Assembly (NCBI GenBank): GCA_014803415.1
Contig: JAAVBZ010000030.1
Span: 47,418-90,068, forward strand
DNA: 42,651 nt
Origin: Lachnospiraceae bacterium
GTDB lineage: Bacteria > Bacillota > Clostridia > Lachnospirales > Lachnospiraceae
Direction of reading: 5' to 3'
Part shown: positions 29,915 through 42,651 of the stretch, piece after piece
Layout of the letters: the number at the start of each line of letters is the position of its first letter
Numbering within the stretch: the first letter of the stretch is position 1
The notes under the pieces: model-generated
Seen by the model: the letters and a program-made list of their open reading frames with translations, nothing else
What the model was told of the DNA's origin: nothing
Databases searched by the model: none
Position numbers and translations under genes: made by a program

Positions 29915-30532
29915 TTATGCCGATATCTCTTCAAATTCTTTACAAACCCCCTGACAGATCCATTTTCGCAGCTCCTCTCTTTTCTCCTTGTCAAGAAATC
30001 TTTCGTCTCTGATCATCATTCCGTAACATAAGATTTTAGAAAATAAGCTTACCGAAAGGTATGTCAGTCCTTCTTCTGAGAGAGTCTGATCATCTTTCAA
30101 TTCATCCTTCAATATCTGCTTAAGCATATCTACCGGAAACATTTCTTCTTCCACTCTTTCTTTCTCCATCACCCGCATTCTCTGGCTTATCATGGAATTA
30201 TCAGACATGATGTGGATCAAACGCAGTATGCAGTTAGCTTTGGTCATCTGCTGTTCCATCGCAAGCAGGACAAAATTAACCTTATCATTTAAATTTTTTT
30301 CTTTGCTCAGGCCCTCATATATCTGTCGGATAAACGATATGCCATTATAAAAAAGGGCCCCCGCTATCATTTCTTCTTTATCGGAGAAATACTCGTAAGC
30401 AGTACCCTTACCGATTCCCGCTCTTCCCGTGATCTCCGCTACTGTCAGACTGCTTAAATCTGCGCCTTCTTCAAACAGTTCCATCACTGCCTGATAGATT
30501 GCTTTTTCTTTAGGAGAATGCTCTCTATTCAT
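29915..30532 (-). CDS. TetR-family regulator
   Basis: The 205-residue protein has the TetR helix-turn-helix near its N-terminus (LTVAEITGRAGIGKGTAYEYFSDKEEMI, about 35-62) and a variable all-helical ligand domain. The start is ATG 30532, eight bases inside the end of the upstream RND transporter gene. AAGGAGA lies ten bases before it, so translation is coupled. It is probably the repressor of the RND operon, acting on the palindrome at 34853-34872. Confidence 0.9.
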   Translation of the reverse strand: MNREHSPKEKAIYQAVMELFEEGADLSSLTVAEITGRAGIGKGTAYEYFSDKEEMIAGALFYNGISFIRQIYEGLSKEKNLNDKVNFVLLAMEQQMTKANCILRLIHIMSDNSMISQRMRVMEKERVEEEMFPVDMLKQILKDELKDDQTLSEEGLTYLSVSLFSKILCYGMMIRDERFLDKEKREELRKWICQGVCKEFEEISA

Positions 30533-33500
30533 AGTCTTCACTCTCCTTAATTTTTTTTAAGTATGTTTTTTTCTCCGTCCCTTTTTCTCTCATAAAAATA
30601 TCATAAATACATGGGATCACCACAAGTGTTAACAGTGTACCGTAAATAAGTCCTCCTATCGTTACGATCGCCATAGGCTTTGACATATCCGCTCCCATAT
30701 CACTGCTGAATACCATAGTACTTAAGGCCAGGATCGTAGTCAAGGCTGTCATCATAACAGGACGTATCCTGGTTCTTCCTGCCGTTATAATGGCTTCTTT
30801 TTTCTCCATGCCTTTTTCACGCAGCTGATTAATATAGTCTACCAAAACGATACCGTTATTAACAATAATACCAGACAACATGACGAAACCGATCAGAGCA
30901 ATAACGCTCACTTCGCTGCCACTGATAATGAGTCCCAAAAATCCCCCCGTAAACGCCAGCGGAATAGTAAACATAATGATAAAGGGCGATAGCAATGACT
31001 GGAATTGCGCCACCATGATCAAATACATGAAAATAATTGCAAGGAGGAGCATCAGGTACACCTGTCCCATGGCATCCTTTATGGTTTCATTTTCACCGCT
31101 CATTACATAAGTATAACCACTGGGCATTTCATAACTCTTCAATTCTTCTTCCACAGCATCCGAAACAAGCCCTACATTATAGCCGTCTGCAACAGAAGCA
31201 CTGACAGCAATATATCTGGTCTGATCCACTCTGTTAACGGATTTGGGCGATTCCATATTTTCAAATGTTGCAATATCGGATAGGTTTATCTTTTCCTTGG
31301 TGCCGTCATTTTTGGTCCTGTCAAGCTCCAGATCTTTGATCAAGTCTCTTGTCAGTTCCATGTCGTTTCCATGCTTTACATAAACACTGTATTCTTTGAT
31401 CTCCGTCTCAAAGGTTGTTGCACTGGAAGCTGCCGCCAGTTTACTCTGTATCTGCTGGAAAACCTGTGCAACAGTAAGTCCATGCTCAATTGCTTTATTC
31501 CGGTCAATAATAATACGCATTTCACCAGTGGACTCTTCCAGTCCATCCGATACCTCTGCAGTTCCTTCCACGCTTTCCACAATTGCTGCAATATCTTTTG
31601 CAAGTTCCTGCATGGTATCCAGATCTCGTCCCTTTATCTGAACAGTAATACCGCTTCCTCCCAAGGCGCTCATATCCATAGTAGAGGTTTCAATCGATAC
31701 TTCCGCTTGATTTGCTTCGAGAATATCTGCAATGTTCTCTCTGATTTCGGCTGCTATTTCATTATTATCCCGCTTTTTGTCCTCGCTTAAGGATACATAA
31801 ATTGTAGTTGCATTGGTAGCCGAATTGCCGCCTCCAGACAACAGCCCCAAGGAAGAAGTGCTTGCCATAGCTCCCACATCTTCTACCTCTTCTATCTCCA
31901 TCAGTTTTTCCAGAACCTCATCCGTTACCTGACCTGTTTCACTGAGGGGCGTATCTTTCGGCATGTTCAGTGACATGCTGATCTGCGTACTGTCCATTTC
32001 CGGCATAAAGGCGGTTCCTTTAGCAAATGCAGCAAGTGTACTGACGACCAGAAGCGCCAAAACCAGAATTATAACTACAGGCTTGAATTTCAGAGCAAAT
32101 CCCAGAAATTTTTCATAAACAGTCATAAGACCGTCAAAGGTCTTGCTTTCCTTCTGCTCCTTTGCCCTGGAAAGCATACCTGCTGCCATAGCAGGCACTA
32201 CAGTCAATGCCACTATCAAGCTGGCTAACAGGGAATAAGCAATGGTAAGCCCCATGTCCACAAACAGCTGTCTGGTGATACCTTCCGTAAAAACAATCGG
32301 AAGGAATACGCATACTGTAGTAAGGGTGGAAGCCAGGATCGCACCTGCCACTTCCCCTGCTCCTTCTATTGCCGCTTCTTTAGCCGAACTGCCTTCATTT
32401 CGCAGTCTGAAAATATTTTCAATCACTACGATAGAGTTATCTACCAGCATACCTACGCCCAGAGCCAACCCTGACAGCGATATTACATTCAGTGTAACGC
32501 CGCTGAAATACATACATACGATCGCCGTGATCATACTGATGGGAATCGAACATGCTACTACTGCCGTAGGTCTCCAGTCCTTCAGGAACAGAATCAAGAT
32601 CAATACTGCGAGTACAGCTCCAAACAATACATTATTGATAATAGAATCCATAACAAGGTCAATGTAAATCCCCTGATCCATCAATGTGATCAGGATCAGA
32701 TTCTCATTTTCTGCCTTCAGTTCTTCAAATTTATCCAATATCTTGTCTGAGACATCACCAGTTGAATATCCGGTCTGTTTCTGGATTGAAACCATAATAC
32801 CGGGCGAGCCATTGACATTTGTATAGATATCGGCAGAATTATCTGTCATAAATACATCTGCCACATCTTCGAGAGTTATAACATCTACTCCATCCATTTC
32901 AGGATTCAAAAGAGGCATCTTTTTAAGTAATTCTATATCATCAGGCTTATCGCCCACTCTGATCAGATAATCAATGCCTTCCTCTGTTACATATCCGGCG
33001 GGCATGGAAAAGTTCTGCGCAGTCAAAAGAGATTTCACGGTATCCACAGTAAGAATGCCGCCCATATCAGCCTGATTGTAAGCATTTTCTCTTGCTTCCT
33101 CTAAATCCTTTTCGCCGTCTAATATCTGCTGCAGAGCATCTTTCAGCTGTTCGGCTGTATCGTTCAATTTCTCTTCGCCTTCTTTGATCTGATCCCAGCC
33201 CGCGTCCAGCTGCTTTTGTCCGGCTTCTATCTGTTCTTCTCCTGCCTCCAGCTGCTTTTCACTAGCTTCCAGCTGAGTCTCGGCAGTTTTAAGCTGCATC
33301 TCTCCAAGGCTGATAGTGGTCTGCGCATTGGCAAACTCAATGGCCGCCGTCAGGTTGCCCTTGTATAATTCGGTGAGGGCGCTGTCCAGTTTTGCGATAT
33401 TACTTTCTATTTCAGAAAGAGCGGAATTCATTTGGGCAATATAAACGTCAGCGCCTAATCCCATGGTGTTAGATTTAATACTATATTCCAAACCCTCTTT

Positions 33501-34820
33501 CAAGGCCGCTGTACTGGTCCACGTCTTTGCCAAGTTTTCCAATGGCTCAATCTGTGCATTAAAATATTCAATTTTTTCATTAACCTGATTAAGCGCATCT
33601 GCAACAGTGCTGTCACTGGTAACACTAATTCCAAGCGCAGATAGCTGATTCGCCAAGTCTCCTTCCACCACAGCGCTTTGATCCATATTTATAAGAGCTT
33701 GCTGCATTTCACTATAAGGTTCTCTGAATGGTTTTAAAGCATCAACTGCAGCACTCACATCGCTTACATCTTGGAATCCTAATGCAGCTGCCTGTTTTTC
33801 TATCTCTTCCAAACCAGCAGCAGCTTTATTATATCCTTCTACAGAAGACTCCAGCGTTTTAATATCCAGCGTAATATGCATTTTGGATGCTTCCAGATCC
33901 GCCTTAGCTGTCAGTATCTGTTTCTCGGCCTCTGCCAGCTGTTCAGTTGTTTCGGCCTTTTTATTTGCAAGTTCGGTCTTACCATCCTCCAGTTTCAATT
34001 TATTCTCATTGATTTCGGCTTTTCCGTCCTCTATCTTCTGTTTACTCTCTTCCAGTTCTTTTCTGCTGTCATCAAGCTCGGTCTGACTGTCTGCCAGCTC
34101 CTTCTTGGAATCTTCCAGTTCTGCCCTTGCATCGGCAATTTCTACCTGACCGTCATAAATCTCCTGCTTGCCGTCAGCAAGTTCCTGCTCTGCTTCTTTC
34201 AGTTCTTCATCTATAGAGCCAAAAACCTGTTTATTAATTTCATCTATCTTCTCCTGTCTGATGATAACATGCACGCTTTCTTCCAGCAGACCTGTAGCAC
34301 TGGCAGAAGCAACTCCTTCAATACTTTCCAGTTCGGGAATGATACTATTCTGGGTCAATTCACTGACTTCTGCATTTGTCATTCCCTCACAACCCACTGC
34401 GGCGATCATAACGGGAAGCATATCGGGATTCAATTTGATAATAAGAGGATTTCCTACAGAATCATCCCAATAACCTTTTATCTGATCCAGATTTTCCCTT
34501 ATTTCCAAGGAAGCAGCATTCATATCGGCCGACTGTGTAAATTCCAGAATTACCATGGAATAGTTTTCACTGGAAACAGAACTGATCCCTTCAATATTGC
34601 TGACTGTCGCCATGGAAGCCTCCACCGGTTTAGTCACGACCATTTCCACAGTCTCCGGACTGGCACCAGGATAAGTCGTCATAACAATTACATACGGCAG
34701 ACTGATACTGGGTAATAAGTCTGTAGTCATTTTTGTAAAAGAAACAACTCCAAGTACAAGTACAAGAATTACTGCCACCAGCACTGTATAAGGTTTCTTA
34801 ACACTGAATTTCCCAAGCAT
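30525..34820 (-). CDS. RND-superfamily exporter with long coiled-coil insertion
   Basis: The 1431-residue protein is an AcrB/HAE-type RND permease: [50 protein letters not shown], and [10 protein letters not shown]-type and [32 protein letters not shown] segments with the helix-4 Asp of the proton relay, plus a second similar half. It is about 400 residues longer than AcrB. The excess is a heptad-rich coiled coil in the first outer loop (about 205-330 and 505-590; units such as [25 protein letters not shown]). In a Gram-positive cell without an outer membrane this may replace the separate adaptor protein. AGAGGT precedes the ATG. It is co-transcribed with the TetR gene. Confidence 0.92.
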   Translation of the reverse strand: [1431 protein letters not shown]

Positions 34821-36181: not shown

Positions 36182-36212
36182 AAAATGGCTATGCGTTTCC
36201 ACATAGCCATTT
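36179..36212 (-). terminator. intrinsic terminator of the M60/cohesin-like operon
   Basis: AAATGGCTATG pairs with CATAGCCATTT over an 8-base loop. On the minus strand it is followed by a T-run. It lies about 60 bases after the stop of the cohesin-like gene. Confidence 0.75.
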
Positions 36213-36269: not shown

Positions 36270-37517
36270 TCACTTTAATATTGATTTCTTCTGCACACCC
36301 TTTTTCCTCACCGGTTTTCTTCTTCTCCGGCGTTTTTTCCTTACAGGTTTCCTCTTTCTCCGGCGTCTTTTTTTCTTCTTTTTCTTCTTGGCGCCTACAG
36401 GCAGATATCCTATCCATTTCATGATCAGAAGGATCATGCCCCCTGCTATAATGATCACACCAGCCGAAATTGCACTAATGATAAGGATCCGTCTTCTTCT
36501 TTCACTTTTTCCGTTATCTACCGCACCGCCATTTTTCTGATCCAGCATAATTTCTTCCTGACCATCTTCCAAGGCAGCGCCTTCTCCCAGAATCTTTCCT
36601 GCATTTCCATCATTATTATCTCCTGATAACCCATCTGAAAAGCTGTCGAATTGATCCCCGTCTGAAGCTTTGCTGTCTCCCTTTGATATAAGAATACTTG
36701 CAGGACCATTTTTCGGTGAGATCACAGATACCTTCCCTTTCGCTTTAGTACGCCCGGTAATATCTGTATCTGCACCATTCTTCCCGGCAATTGCAGCCGC
36801 TGCCCCTGTACTTAAATTATGCAGCAATGTTTCTGCCTTGTCCTTCTTAATGACAGAGGCGTCAATCTTCTGGGCACTGGCCGGATCATTGGTAAAACGT
36901 GTCGTCTCATCATATAGCCCCTGATCCCGGTTACTGCCTCCCAAGCTGCCGGCCGCTGAATTTCCCCCGCTGCTGTTTCCTGCTCCTTGCGAGCCAGTGC
37001 CAGGAGTCAATGTACCATTACCAACCTGTATGCTCACAGGCTCAACTTCTCCTTCTATTACCGGCGTCTTATCACCGTAAGAACCGTTAGCAGTCTGAAA
37101 AGAATTTTTACAATAGCTGACATCTGCCGAAAGGCTCCGCCCCGGATCCGTCGGCTGCACCTGAACATTCCCAAGGTTCAGCTTTTCCTCACTGAACAGA
37201 CTTTTGGATGAAGCTACATAGATATCAAGCCTTCCGCTATCCTTGTTATATACAAAGCCATGCTCCGTTCCGCCAAGCTCCGGGGCAAACTGAAACCCTA
37301 CTGTTACCTGCTCCGGATCATCGGTCTTAACTTCCAAAGATATAGATACTGTGGTAATTTTTTCTTCTGTTGCATTACTCATTTCAAGTGATACAGATAC
37401 CTGATTTCCGTCCTGCCCAAGCACTACCATGTCCTGCCCCGCTGCATTTACCCGCAGCGGAGCAGACAAACCTATTATCACTAATCCCAGATATATCTTA
37501 CTCTGAATCCGTTTCAC
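36270..37517 (-). CDS. secreted cohesin-like, membrane-anchored protein with polybasic cytoplasmic tail
   Basis: The 415-residue protein has a signal peptide (MKRIQSKIYLGLVIIGLSAP, cleavage likely after VNA at about 25). A beta-rich domain at about 28-155 (VVLGQDGNQVSVSLEMSN, VTVGFQFAPELGG, GRLDIYVASSKSLFSEEKLNLGNVQVQ) resembles a cohesin. A Gly/Ser-rich linker follows (about 160-190), then an Asp/Gly/Asn-rich stalk. A single membrane helix lies at about 344-368. The last 40 residues are almost only Lys and Arg with a repeated KPVRKK. There is no LPXTG motif. The start is GTG with AGGTG seven bases upstream. The gene lies 61 bases after a dockerin-bearing M60 peptidase, so it may be that enzyme's surface receptor. 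The cohesin call is by pattern only. Confidence 0.65.
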   Translation of the reverse strand: MKRIQSKIYLGLVIIGLSAPLRVNAAGQDMVVLGQDGNQVSVSLEMSNATEEKITTVSISLEVKTDDPEQVTVGFQFAPELGGTEHGFVYNKDSGRLDIYVASSKSLFSEEKLNLGNVQVQPTDPGRSLSADVSYCKNSFQTANGSYGDKTPVIEGEVEPVSIQVGNGTLTPGTGSQGAGNSSGGNSAAGSLGGSNRDQGLYDETTRFTNDPASAQKIDASVIKKDKAETLLHNLSTGAAAAIAGKNGADTDITGRTKAKGKVSVISPKNGPASILISKGDSKASDGDQFDSFSDGLSGDNNDGNAGKILGEGAALEDGQEEIMLDQKNGGAVDNGKSERRRRILIISAISAGVIIIAGGMILLIMKWIGYLPVGAKKKKKKKRRRRKRKPVRKKRRRRRKPVRKKGVQKKSILK

Positions 37518-37578
37518 AATCTATCACCTGCCATTATATGCTTGTCCGATCTGTTTCATAATATAGTAAATATACAAT

Positions 37579-40500
37579 TTATTTGTCATCCACTATACTC
37601 TTCAAAGTAATCCGTTCCAGCACATCCGGTATCTGCAGCGGCATGGTATCACTTACAAGCCTTTGTCCTTCATTCGTTAATGCATTGTCTACACGATATA
37701 ACTGCGCGCGCACAGCTTTGCCTTTCAGGCCGCTGGGTATCCGGTCAGGCTCGATCCAATAGATCCAAATGCCGTCGCTTACTTCGCCAAGCATTCCATT
37801 CTCAGGCACATTTGCCAGAATGATCTGCTCTGACCTTAATACATTTTCTTCGTCCACGCCTCCTACAATATTTCCCTCTTCATCATAGAGGATCACCACG
37901 TTGTAAGCCGGATTTCCCTTATAGCTTCCGGTAAAGACAATAGAATCCTTGGGAATGCTCTTCCCTTCTTCATAGATATAGTCCTCACTTAAGATGCCTA
38001 CTGCCCCATGGGTATCGCTTTCTCTTACGCCAAAGGAAATACTGTCCCCGGAAGGTCCCAGCAGATCCACTTCCGCAATGCACATTTTCGTCTGCCCCTT
38101 TGCCCTTAACCTGACATAAGCGGCGTCATAGGTGCATACCCACGGATCTTTATCTGCATTTTCAAAATACACAGTCTGGCTTCCTGTCTTCTGTTCAAAA
38201 TTTCCAGTCTTTACCGTTGTCCAGCTATTGCCATCCACACTGACCTCAATGGTATACGCGCCAACTGGCGAACCTGATCTCACTGTATATTTCAAACCGC
38301 ATACTTCCAGTACCTGGTTCATTCCGATCAGGATTTCCGCATCGCCGCCCGTTGTCAGACCTTCATAGTCCCCCTTATAATCATTGTCTATTACCTTATA
38401 AACGGCTGAAACCTTTTCAGGGGCACAAGGCTCTTCTTCTATTGCTTCCCCAGTCCCATCGCTGGCAGAAAACATGTTGGTAGATACTGTCCACATTGAT
38501 TTATCCTGACTGCCGTCATGGGATATCCTTACGTCCCCTATCTTCCGGCTATTGGAACGATAACCGAACTGATCCACTGCTGTGACCTCGTAGGTCATCA
38601 CCCTGTTATTGACTGTTGCTACATGATCCACATAAGTGGTTCTTGTAGAAAATCCAATAACCTGGCGCACCGGCACTCCATTTTCATATTGATATCTGGC
38701 AATCTCATATCCTAAAACCACATCCGGATCAGCTGTGTCCTGAATAGAGATTGTCACTTCATTAGGTATCTTGCTGCTCACCTGCACGGTACTTCCTGCG
38801 CTGATCACATCTCTTCCCTTTACAGAGCCTGCTGTACCATGTTCGATTTCATATACTCTCGCATCATCCGTCAGATAATACAGCGCACGCTCTTCCTTAT
38901 CAAACTGCTTCGCATAACTGAGCGTTTCTGCATCCGGCACCAGTCCCCAACGCATGAAAAACTCTGTCAAGTCTTTTTCTGCTGCTGCACAGGCAAGACG
39001 CATGATATTCTGATCACTGCCGCCGTTTAATTGCAGATTTCCTTTTGCCTGGGCAGGATTTCTGCTGTAAGAATCTACCCGCGCGTAGAACAGGTTCGCC
39101 TGCTGCTGTTCATAAGTATCATAAGTCTTATAATTGTAATCCCTGTCATAAGCAAGATGAAGCTGCCAATACATAGCAAGATGGGTAAATACATCAGAAG
39201 GTTTTCCCACCGTATTCGAGGTTACTTTTTGATAAACCTTATCATAACTAAAGCGCACTGTGCTGTTGCTGTCCTCAGACTTCGTCAACTGTGCGAAATA
39301 ATTGTTGGTAACCTCTGCTATTGCATAGCTTCCCTGATTAATGTTATGTCCGATCTCATGGCTGATTCCCCAGCCGAAATAGCTTCCGCTTATATATTTT
39401 CCATTGGCATCTGCCTGTACCGGCACTGCTGATGCTAACCCTGGCACAGAGCCCCATTCAATTCCTATATGATTTCCTGCTGCATACATAAATGCGCCCG
39501 CAAACATCCTCATATAGCGGATATTCAAATGCTGTGCAGGAAGCCGGTCTGTTGCCGGCGTTGATGCATCATTACCAAGTCCTTTGTGCTGATAAAACAG
39601 CTTCATCATATCTTCCATTGCCTGTAAGGACTGTTCCAGCCTGTCTGCACGTTCCTGTGTACTGCCCTTTCCAAGACCTGCAAGGATCTGCTGTGCCGAT
39701 ACGGACAGCATCATTTGATCCAGCATGATATCCGTAGCGCCAAGGATACAGTTTTCTTTCTCATAACTACGGTTTACTTTATTTCCATTCCCCGTGCTTT
39801 CATGCAGTGCTTTATGCTGATCCTCCAAAGATGCCACATGCTCTTCCAATTCCTTTACATAAGATACAATGCGCTCCTTCCTTTGTCCGGGATCCGTAAT
39901 GCCATAAAGATTCAATACAGGTTCCTTCGCTCCGCCGCTTACCCGTACTGCATATCTGTCATTCTCATTCTTTCCGGTATATTGAACATAAAGGGCGCCG
40001 CCGCCTTCACAGGTAAGACTTTGGATGGAAGGAATTGTGATCTCATTACGCCCCACCTTCAGTGTGGCAATCTCCGTTGCAAATGCGCTTGCTTCCGCAT
40101 GATATTGAGTTGCAATCAACTTCAGAGCCGAATCTGATCCTGTCTTTAATTGATCATGCCCTACATATACCACGATCTGTTCCCCCTCATATGCCGTAAT
40201 ACCAAGGGGCTGCCATGCATTCAATCCGCTAAATCCCAAGTGTCCGTCTTTTGCCGCGGTGATCCTGGCATTGATCTCTACCACTTCCTGAAAATCTGAT
40301 GACAAAAGTCCTCTGGCATTGTCCAATTCCTTCTGAAGCATCGTCCTTTCCGGATGATATTCTCCACTTTTTGCATCTTTCGTGTCCAGACGTTTTTGCA
40401 GTTCGGCAATGACTGCCTCCGTCACATCTCCCTTAAGAGATGTATGAAGATCATCGGCATATAAAGCAAGAATATCATTTTCCAAACTGTCATAATAATA

Positions 40501-42651
40501 GAAATTCACCTCGGAAATAATAATTTCACGCTGGTTGTTTCCTCTTGTAAATCCCAGCCTTACCTTATTTGCCTTGATCGGCTGTGCCATCTTGATCAAA
40601 TAATATTTCCGTCCGTTTACATCTGTCCGCTGCAATAAAGATACATTCTGCGCCGCAGTTCCGTCAGGGTGCTCCTTGTCATAATAATAAACGTATACAC
40701 CGCTGTACCATCCAATATCCTCCGTTTCTGCAAAAGCAATATAATTCATTTCATAATAATCGTCCAGCGTAAACAACAAACCTTTATCCGGCGAAGGATA
40801 ACTCGCCCCATCATCCCAGTCCAAAATCTGATAATGGGATACTGCATCCTTATCCACCGTCCCAAGGGCGCTCTTTTTATCCGAATCCAAAGAACTGGAT
40901 ACCATAGAACCCCTTCCGTGGGTCACGCTTACGATATGAGCGCTTACCTTCCCTTTTCCATTGGACTCATTGATCAGCTTGTAGTTAGGCATTTCCGCCG
41001 GCTTGATCGTGATCGTCCGGGCTTCCGAATGAATGGAAGGATTACTTTCTCCCAGCTCATTCACACCGGTCACATAGATCTCATACCTTGTTTCATCCTT
41101 CAGATTTGTAATGGTATGCCTGTTTTGATCTACACCTGTGATTTTACTGTAAGTACTTTCTCCATCCGCCTTATAATAAATGTTGTAGGAATCCGTGTCC
41201 TCCATATTCTTCCATGTCAACTTGATACGGCAGTAGCCTCCCACTGCTTTCAGATTATCCGGCGCATCAGGCTTACCTGAAATAACGGGGCTTACCGATA
41301 CACTGCCTGAATAGCCGCTGGTCCATGTTCCGTTTACAGACTGTACCCTGACTTCATAAACATTACCGTTTTTCAGCCTTCCTCCCATAAAGGATTTCAC
41401 TTCCAGTTGGTTAGAAGCTACTCGCCTGGTTTCCGTCTGCCCATTATAGCTGATTTCCACCTCATATCCGGTCACATTTCGCTGCTGATTCCAAGTCACC
41501 CGGAAGGACTTATTCCCTCCTGTCGTGCTCAGCCCATCAGGTATATTCATATCAGGTGCAGGAATCCTGTTATCCATGTCATTTAAAAATTCCACCTTGG
41601 AAATCTCTGCCAGGTTTCCGCCAAATTTCATTCCGGTGATCGTCAGAGTGATCTTCTTTACAGCAGTCTGCCCTCCCAGATCGATGATCAGCGAACCGCT
41701 TTGTCCTTCATCCCCCACAGATGACATACGGCTTACTGACACTACTTTTCCATCTTCAATCACATAATCAGGCAGCTTCCCGCCGTCTTCTGTTATCACA
41801 GTCAGCGTTCCGCTTTCAATGCCATTTTCCCCCATGGAAATAGTGATCTGCTCCATCTCCTGTGCCGACTGGCCGTCACTTTCCAAGTTAAAGCCGATCT
41901 CCACCGGAAAATCCTCTGAGATGTTCCCGCCTTTGCTCTTTAAGGTTATCTTTTCATTATTATCTTTCAATAAATTCTCCGGATTTCCCTCAATGTCTGT
42001 GGTACTTGTATTGACATTTACCTGCACTGCATCAGGTGAAACTCTGCTATATAGGGACGCTGTGGTATCTGCATTATCATTCAGCCTCGCTTTACTATTG
42101 ACATAATATTGCAGATCCACAAGGTCAGTCTGCCCATCCTTATTCAAATCCGTAGGATTATGATCCGGGTTCCCTTTCAGCACGCCATCTGTCCCCTGGC
42201 TGATTGCCTGCATGATCGCATCCTTGTCCATATCATCCAGCACGCCATCCCTGTTTACATCTCCGATCAGCATAGCACCCGGATGCGGCGCATTTTCCGT
42301 ATACTCAATACCAGCCAATTCCACAAAGCCGGTATAGATCTCCGCCGTCTTAATATCGCCGGAAACTTCAATATCCTGCTCATAGGCAAGAAAGCCAAAC
42401 CCGGAATTATCCGTTTCCGCCTCGGTTATCGTCAAATGATATTTTCCTGCTTCTAATTTATCAAACAATGTAATATGCTTCTGTGAGTCGCTTCCAAGGA
42501 TCACTTCTTTGCTGCCCTCATCTGCCAGTGTCACTCTCAGTTTGATCTTTTGATCTTTGCTGATCGGGAGCGCATTCATCAGGATTATCTCAACGCCGCC
42601 GGTGACTGTGGATAAAACTTGCCGGTCATTCCAGCTTTCGTCATCTGCCGG
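37579..42651 (-). CDS. large secreted M60-like metallopeptidase with dockerin, FN3 and discoidin-like domains (5' end outside window)
   Basis: The frame stays open to the window edge (the ATG at 42579 is internal; it is preceded by 24 in-frame codons ending GGVEIIL), so at least 1690 residues are visible. Numbered from that ATG: a dockerin at about 103-165 with two Ca loops (DVNRDGVLDDMD, DLNKDGQTDLVD); a discoidin-like domain (230-335); two FN3 domains (342-430, 433-524); a second discoidin-like domain (540-690); the M60 peptidase (about 785-1240) with HEIGH at 1074-1078 and the gluzincin Glu1089 in AIAEVTNN; a further FN3-like region; and a C-terminal F5/8C-like domain (about 1375-1510). 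The M60 family cleaves O-glycosylated proteins such as mucins. There is no membrane anchor at the C-terminus. Confidence 0.9.
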   Translation of the reverse strand, partial: PADDESWNDRQVLSTVTGGVEIILMNALPISKDQKIKLRVTLADEGSKEVILGSDSQKHITLFDKLEAGKYHLTITEAETDNSGFGFLAYEQDIEVSGDIKTAEIYTGFVELAGIEYTENAPHPGAMLIGDVNRDGVLDDMDKDAIMQAISQGTDGVLKGNPDHNPTDLNKDGQTDLVDLQYYVNSKARLNDNADTTASLYSRVSPDAVQVNVNTSTTDIEGNPENLLKDNNEKITLKSKGGNISEDFPVEIGFNLESDGQSAQEMEQITISMGENGIESGTLTVITEDGGKLPDYVIEDGKVVSVSRMSSVGDEGQSGSLIIDLGGQTAVKKITLTITGMKFGGNLAEISKVEFLNDMDNRIPAPDMNIPDGLSTTGGNKSFRVTWNQQRNVTGYEVEISYNGQTETRRVASNQLEVKSFMGGRLKNGNVYEVRVQSVNGTWTSGYSGSVSVSPVISGKPDAPDNLKAVGGYCRIKLTWKNMEDTDSYNIYYKADGESTYSKITGVDQNRHTITNLKDETRYEIYVTGVNELGESNPSIHSEARTITIKPAEMPNYKLINESNGKGKVSAHIVSVTHGRGSMVSSSLDSDKKSALGTVDKDAVSHYQILDWDDGASYPSPDKGLLFTLDDYYEMNYIAFAETEDIGWYSGVYVYYYDKEHPDGTAAQNVSLLQRTDVNGRKYYLIKMAQPIKANKVRLGFTRGNNQREIIISEVNFYYYDSLENDILALYADDLHTSLKGDVTEAVIAELQKRLDTKDAKSGEYHPERTMLQKELDNARGLLSSDFQEVVEINARITAAKDGHLGFSGLNAWQPLGITAYEGEQIVVYVGHDQLKTGSDSALKLIATQYHAEASAFATEIATLKVGRNEITIPSIQSLTCEGGGALYVQYTGKNENDRYAVRVSGGAKEPVLNLYGITDPGQRKERIVSYVKELEEHVASLEDQHKALHESTGNGNKVNRSYEKENCILGATDIMLDQMMLSVSAQQILAGLGKGSTQERADRLEQSLQAMEDMMKLFYQHKGLGNDASTPATDRLPAQHLNIRYMRMFAGAFMYAAGNHIGIEWGSVPGLASAVPVQADANGKYISGSYFGWGISHEIGHNINQGSYAIAEVTNNYFAQLTKSEDSNSTVRFSYDKVYQKVTSNTVGKPSDVFTHLAMYWQLHLAYDRDYNYKTYDTYEQQQANLFYARVDSYSRNPAQAKGNLQLNGGSDQNIMRLACAAAEKDLTEFFMRWGLVPDAETLSYAKQFDKEERALYYLTDDARVYEIEHGTAGSVKGRDVISAGSTVQVSSKIPNEVTISIQDTADPDVVLGYEIARYQYENGVPVRQVIGFSTRTTYVDHVATVNNRVMTYEVTAVDQFGYRSNSRKIGDVRISHDGSQDKSMWTVSTNMFSASDGTGEAIEEEPCAPEKVSAVYKVIDNDYKGDYEGLTTGGDAEILIGMNQVLEVCGLKYTVRSGSPVGAYTIEVSVDGNSWTTVKTGNFEQKTGSQTVYFENADKDPWVCTYDAAYVRLRAKGQTKMCIAEVDLLGPSGDSISFGVRESDTHGAVGILSEDYIYEEGKSIPKDSIVFTGSYKGNPAYNVVILYDEEGNIVGGVDEENVLRSEQIILANVPENGMLGEVSDGIWIYWIEPDRIPSGLKGKAVRAQLYRVDNALTNEGQRLVSDTMPLQIPDVLERITLKSIVDDK

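Follow-up and report, generated by a model that had tools for sequence, protein, structure and literature searches.

The window analysed here is a 42,651-nucleotide stretch from a Lachnospiraceae bacterium (GenBank assembly GCA_014803415.1, contig JAAVBZ010000030.1). It carries a gene for a large M60-like peptidase and, directly behind it, a gene for a secreted anchor protein with a cohesin-like domain. We conclude that the anchor protein is most probably the dedicated surface receptor of this one dockerin-bearing M60 glycoprotease, working one to one without a scaffoldin. In the proposed mechanism, the M60 would be exported free, with no anchor of its own. Its N-terminal X-module–dockerin, with calcium in both loops, would then bind the only cohesin that the anchor protein carries, and a flexible spacer would let this protein extend from the membrane. 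The receptor would in this way keep one glycoprotein-cutting enzyme at the envelope. We infer the dockerin–cohesin binding, its calcium dependence and its orientation, as well as a mucin-type glycoprotein as the substrate. An earlier note, made from the DNA letters, had proposed a two-gene docking system at this place. The gene pair is real and lies where the note had located it, and the dockerin loops, the HEIGH motif with its Glu, and the signal-like stretch and membrane helix of the anchor were all found at sequence level.

The anchor protein is predicted to carry a cohesin

The predicted structure of the domain, built from alignment A1 (50 of 51 cohesins, one duplicate removed), is that of a cohesin, as the earlier note had supposed, and shows the nine-strand jelly-roll fold (Table 1). 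In a Foldseek search with this model, 45 of the 50 best rows were cohesin modules or chains containing a cohesin, with modest template modelling scores (TM-scores), mostly 0.5–0.6. VIA-align returned cohesin-type structures in 46 of its 50 best rows, including the whole of the first 42. The Clostridium perfringens cohesins 2vo8 and 2jh2 are among the structural matches. We take the PDB entries 2o4e, 3kcp_A and 4fl4_I to be chains that hold a cohesin or an X-dockerin. According to the available text of PMC5141474, type II cohesins have a crowning helix after strand 6 and before strand 7; DSSP assigned none there in the model (E71–77 to E87–97). By this single checkable feature, the modelled anchor cohesin is not of type II. 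The Pfam cohesin family PF00963 had no match in the window's own genome at E ≤ 10 and was absent among the matches listed for 50 members (25 of 26 families). As modelled, anchor residues ~29–165 are a cohesin of a family new to Pfam.

An anchorless M60 peptidase with an X-module–dockerin dyad

The M60 domain scored 49 bits against PF13402 (cut-off 25.8), with HExxH and the downstream Glu in place, and HExxH is kept in 51 of 52 M60 loci. One M60 paralogue (L124, G316:C35) has HVIGH for HEIGH, still with a dockerin and an adjoining cohesin gene. From its sequence it is probably inactive; a HEIGH copy (L102) is present in the same genome.

The dockerin resembles solved dockerins (9.3e-9 and weaker), with two calcium-loop–helix repeats whose loop residues are conserved over 50 distinct sequences (the match in L125 begins within the first loop). 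The window's copy scores under the curated PF00404 cut-off (18.3 versus 22.9 bits). At E ≤ 1, 46 of 48 family members match, and 11 of 37 genomes of the genus have a dockerin match above the cut-off, two of them in other proteins. The dockerin claimed by the earlier note thus proved genuine, and also to be part of a dyad. The Ig-like X-module and the dockerin were modelled as one unit (predicted TM-score (pTM) 0.80), and the best eight VIA-align rows were type II X-dockerins, whose alignments begin no later than residue 17 and run to residue 184. On this model, the N-terminus of the M60 is a type II-like X-module–dockerin dyad. Alignment A3 holds 48 rows, the window and 47 others, leaving out L123 with its long dockerin, duplicates and contig-cut loci. 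Repeat 2 is mostly kept (D-L-V/A/L-D-L-Q-Y-F/Y) and repeat 1 is more variable at the equivalent positions, which suggests a single binding face. The second dockerin repeat is the dominant one in the solved CipB complex (PMC5141474, available text).

The bases past the window edge complete the M60 gene and place a signal peptide at its N-terminus. No anchor was seen in the completed 1823-residue protein, its N-terminus included, in agreement with the earlier claim that the protease has none of its own. A membrane-helix-like stretch behind residue 200 was found in none of 52 M60 proteins. The window's signal reads I-A-x-C-I-L-P-V-R-A, with unread residues, and the signals of nine relatives end in LPV(R/Q)A (seven) or FPV(R/Q)A (two), which fits signal peptidase I. 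A lipoprotein anchor at I-A-x-C was considered: in relatives that keep the Cys, T mostly precedes it, and W replaces C in two. The L044 signal (LISC) would fit a lipobox. Judged by these signals, the M60 is unlikely to be a lipoprotein.

The cohesin keeps to the M60 across genomes

The anchor gene occurs in 16 of 37 genomes of the genus and the M60 in the same 16; the cohesin profile has one match in each, own genome included. Across 397 Lachnospiraceae genomes, the cohesin profile matched 35 at 36 places, and all 36 lie directly behind an M60 or are fused to one (every coordinate compared). The M60 query matched 39 of the 397, in a search that mostly scored two or fewer candidates per genome, so that cohesin-less M60s could escape it; the matches in G002 and G054 cover query 333–520 only, the stretch of the fn3 domains, and were left out of the M60 count. 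A dockerin is present in 51 of 53 loci (one a duplicate), the remaining two (L033, L036) being cut by contig ends. In the 47 unfused loci with a measured gap, both frames are on the same strand and either overlap or are separated by no more than 242 bases; in the window, 61 bases separate the M60 stop codon from the anchor gene. Conservation across the Lachnospiraceae argues for more than a chance pairing.

A class-wide search found the cohesin in 3 of 391 genomes, the own genome and two of other families. By profile matches, the cohesin family is rarer outside the Lachnospiraceae, the non-family share of the 391 drawn genomes being unlisted. In one of these two genomes (L152), a frame with a match to the C-terminal part of the M60 (4.8e-38) is followed by a cohesin-profile protein that carries CWB2 (1.5e-49). 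In the other, from a family of the same order (L151), the cohesin forms one chain with a preceding M60-like part (1.3e-63).

Attachment devices vary behind the cohesin

Attachment classes were scored over the 51 loci with a profile match, one of them a duplicate. Behind the cohesin there is a membrane helix in 22 loci, choline-binding repeats in nine (L123 under the Pfam cut-off), and a sortase-like signal in nine, where an xTGD-type motif (LTED in L104) is followed by a helix and a basic end. In three more loci, the cohesin is fused to an M60 and the chain also carries a C-terminal dockerin. In L053 the cohesin is followed by a FIVAR domain (4.8e-5, under the Pfam cut-off), as it is, judged by eye, in L035 and L054. 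The anchor protein of L042 (G201, same genus as the source) is identical to that of L013, Parablautia muri.

On an M60 tree of 51 rows (without L042, the duplicate of L013, and L033, which has no M60 core), the classes need 10 changes against a minimum of five, and each of two groups, choline-binding and fused, is set apart from the rest by a single branch. Unrelated anchors on the cohesin, and none on the enzyme, are what a receptor role predicts. The note's proposal that the second gene's product holds the protease is thus supported, as far as sequences and models go, by a cohesin that is beside or inside an M60 wherever the profile found it in the 397 genomes, and by anchors that vary.

A wider reading is more tentative and, in our judgement, somewhat less likely to hold than to fail. 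Here, the X-module–dockerin and cohesin would be the constant core of a scaffoldin-free Lachnospiraceae docking class locked to one enzyme, in which anchors are exchanged and, in many-dockerin lineages, the receptor has become fused into the enzyme with the pair retained, serving as internal latch and tether.

Evidence against the receptor and alternative explanations

Several results weigh against a dedicated receptor. By sequence, the anchor protein of the window matched no Pfam family at E ≤ 1, and a PDB search with the cohesin gave nothing credible, its three matches (E 0.26 to 0.94) being regarded as chance. Plain Foldseek with the X-module–dockerin model returned no X-dockerin in the top 50 and nothing at E < 0.001. 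In eight of the 51 partners, no attachment device was recognised, and what follows the cohesin is FN3, Big_2 or nothing. The sortase-like class is weak evidence, as it rests on an xTGD motif that we take to be a sortase signal. On the tree, choline-binding repeats and fusion each arose once, so that there were fewer changes than the classes imply. Two divergent M60s (L126 and L127, in G278 and G179; 33–34% identity) have a dockerin and are followed by a secreted protein, which is cohesin-like at its N-terminus by eye only and has no cohesin-profile match at E ≤ 1. A mirror-tree comparison (40 of 46 loci kept once near-copies were dropped) gave partial correlations with the cohesin of 0.35 for the dockerin, 0.36 for the X-module, 0.30 for F5/8, 0.28 for FN3 and 0.18 for the C-terminal part; the signal is unspecific and gives no support beyond shared descent. 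Finally, the fused chains hold an N-terminal dockerin and a cohesin together, and tethering is not the sole use there.

These fused forms (L036, L039 and L106) have the cohesin and a second, C-terminal dockerin within the M60 chain. The C-terminal dockerins were recognised by eye, with a Pfam match for L039 and two Dockerin_1 stretches in L106. The N-terminal dockerin is retained in L039 and L106, and in G158 (L036) a dockerin match lies on the contig that carries its M60 N-terminus. From the sequences, docking to another system seems to have taken the place of the anchor in these forms; the kept inner pair suggests a further role, for example as a latch. In an alternative reading, the cohesin and the N-terminal dockerin would form a clasp by which M60 molecules are shaped or linked, in cis where fused and in trans elsewhere, with surface attachment secondary. 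The genomes with fused forms have 25 (G158), 28 (G098, L039) and 39 (G256, L106) dockerin matches, so that anchoring could fall to the C-terminal dockerin, and the eight partners without a known anchor point the same way. We nevertheless consider a clasp unlikely, with an attachment device of some kind in 43 of the 51 partners, the three fused ones counted.

That the cohesin protein is a general receptor, serving other dockerin enzymes too, is highly improbable. Five of the 35 pair-bearing genomes searched (G291, G157, G098, G256 and G158) do have 19 to 39 dockerin matches, which would suit it. The own genome, by contrast, has a single Dockerin_1 match at E ≤ 10, that of the M60, and the earlier note's suggestion that the anchor might hold other dockerin enzymes finds no support there. 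A dockerin outside the M60 at E ≤ 0.1 is lacking in 14 of the 16 pair-bearing genomes of the genus (exceptions: G232, where it is on a GH31-like protein, and G234, where the match is weak, E 0.023), and nowhere in the 397 genomes does the cohesin stand away from an M60. In G232:C23, one chain (L150 580-4671) combines a GH31-like part, a dockerin match and then a cohesin-like stretch (GH31 and cohesin by eye); G235:C13 has a dockerin frame similar in size to this protein.

We give equally little credence to a cohesin-fold domain that binds glycan, substrate or propeptide, or aids folding. On this view, the fold would be the one that cohesins share with many beta-sandwich adhesins and carbohydrate-binding modules; collagen-binding adhesins do appear in the Foldseek rows (best at rank 12), and the domain has no cohesin match by sequence. 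Set against this are the unbroken run of cohesins that heads the VIA-align rows and the dockerin on the linked M60 in 51 of 51 loci with a readable N-terminus. A dedicated receptor for one M60 remains the reading we prefer.

Organization of the locus

Table 1. Features of the M60–cohesin pair (window positions unless a locus is named). pLDDT, predicted local distance difference test.
Feature	Position	Strand	Remarks
Source of the window	G000:C30:47418-90068		both pair genes on minus strand
M60-like peptidase gene, part inside the window (1690 aa)	37579..42651	-	open at window edge; Pfam Peptidase_M60 8.1e-13
Full M60 gene with bases past the window edge	L002 1997-7468	-	1823 aa
X-module (Ig-like), N-terminal side of dockerin	42316..42612	-	
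Dockerin, two calcium-loop repeats	42097..42279	-	
Dockerin loop DVNRDGVLDDMD	42226-42261	-	
Dockerin loop DLNKDGQTDLVD	42115-42150	-	
Zincin motif of M60 domain, HEIGHNINQGSYAIAE (HEIGH + Glu)	39313..39360	-	
Fibronectin type III region, two stretches	41002..41556	-	span approximate
F5/8 type C (CBM32-like) domain	38047..38436	-	span approximate
Cohesin-bearing anchor gene, 415 aa	36270..37517	-	GTG start
Anchor signal peptide, approximate	37440..37517	-	sequence and hydropathy
Predicted cohesin domain, anchor residues ~29-165	37023..37433	-	pLDDT 90.4, pTM 0.85; PDB cohesin matches
Gly/Ser/Asn-rich spacer with short motifs GLYDETTRFTNDPASAQ, VSVISPKNGPASILIS, also in relatives	36489..37022	-	by eye
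Anchor membrane helix	36420..36488	-	19-residue hydropathy 2.55
Lys/Arg-rich C-terminal tail of anchor	36273..36389	-	30 K/R among last 53 residues
Inverted repeat 3' of anchor gene, possible terminator	36183..36212	-	by eye; absent from scan listing

The promoter and terminator scan was too unspecific and was not used. The basic tail of the anchor is common to other loci of the genus, and its charge is far above what a stop-transfer signal needs. A TetR-like regulator gene (by eye; L002 7458-8066) overlaps the M60 start. As a member of the unit, the upstream gene was rejected: it is TetR-like (by eye) in nine of 16 genus loci, own included, and differs or is missing in the others. Since it is not conserved, the M60 and anchor genes are the unit. 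Elsewhere in the window (29915-34820), an RND/MMPL-like transporter of 1431 residues with a long coiled insert adjoins a TetR-like gene (by eye).

Comparison with known systems

The pair offers a possible answer to how anchorless M60 glycoproteases stay on the cells of gut Clostridia. Cohesins and dockerins are apparently at work here one to one outside scaffoldins, in a place where the Pfam cohesin model finds nothing, and the pattern in a gut bacterial family of an M60 and a cohesin neighbour with exchangeable anchors suggests a simple hold for one surface enzyme. It also provides a small natural cohesin–X-dockerin pair for testing. Our literature search, with subscription papers mostly outside its coverage, found no prior description of the present pair.

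M60-like (PF13402) peptidases as surveyed by Nakjang et al. 2012 (PMC3267712, available text), the work in which the domain was defined, share with the present M60 the zincin motif, FN3 and F5/8 (CBM32) neighbours, and secretion. That survey gives a dockerin in 2 of 415 M60-like proteins, its main text as available has no occurrence of 'cohesin', and one figure labels M60 proteins of Clostridium and Bacillus '?-anchor', a set that we compare by description only.

A close structural parallel is the type II cohesin–X-dockerin of cellulosomes (C. thermocellum ScaA/CipA and CipB with ScaF and ScaC2; A. cellulolyticus), where an X-module–dockerin dyad likewise meets a cohesin on a surface protein; these structures are the best matches of the window's dyad model. 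There, however, the dyad is C-terminal on a scaffoldin or structural protein, whereas here it is near the N-terminus of an enzyme, and the type II cohesins have the strand 6–7 helix that our model lacks (PMC5141474, available text). By analogy, the pair may work like the surface-attachment branch of a cellulosome, but with the enzyme binding the anchor directly. Cellulosomes and the mucinolysome have multi-cohesin scaffoldins and several dockerin enzymes; in the own genome, the present family is represented by one cohesin, the Pfam cohesin model matches nothing, and the lone Dockerin_1 match is that of the M60. On these sequence counts, the gene pair is not a cellulosome.

In the X82 cohesin/dockerin pairs of C. 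perfringens, too, the cohesins are single and their dockerin partners belong to enzymes that act on host glycans. FIVAR domains occur in these enzymes, a likeness to one partner here (L053). All five C. perfringens cohesin proteins have a glycoside hydrolase domain (PMC12997984, available text), whereas our cohesin protein has no enzyme domain. The Limousia mucinolysome described in the same 2026 paper resembles the proposed system as a cohesin–dockerin assembly directed at host mucin, which includes peptidases that carry dockerins and a cohesin protein anchored to the wall; it differs in its multi-cohesin scaffoldins and in the 21 dockerin-bearing carbohydrate-active enzymes of strain ET540. 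As far as its available text goes, that survey used Pfam models, which miss the present cohesin, and according to it neither dockerins nor cohesins occur in R. gnavus. Biologically, the pair is closest to these two systems, the enzyme pairs of C. perfringens and the mucinolysome of Limousia.

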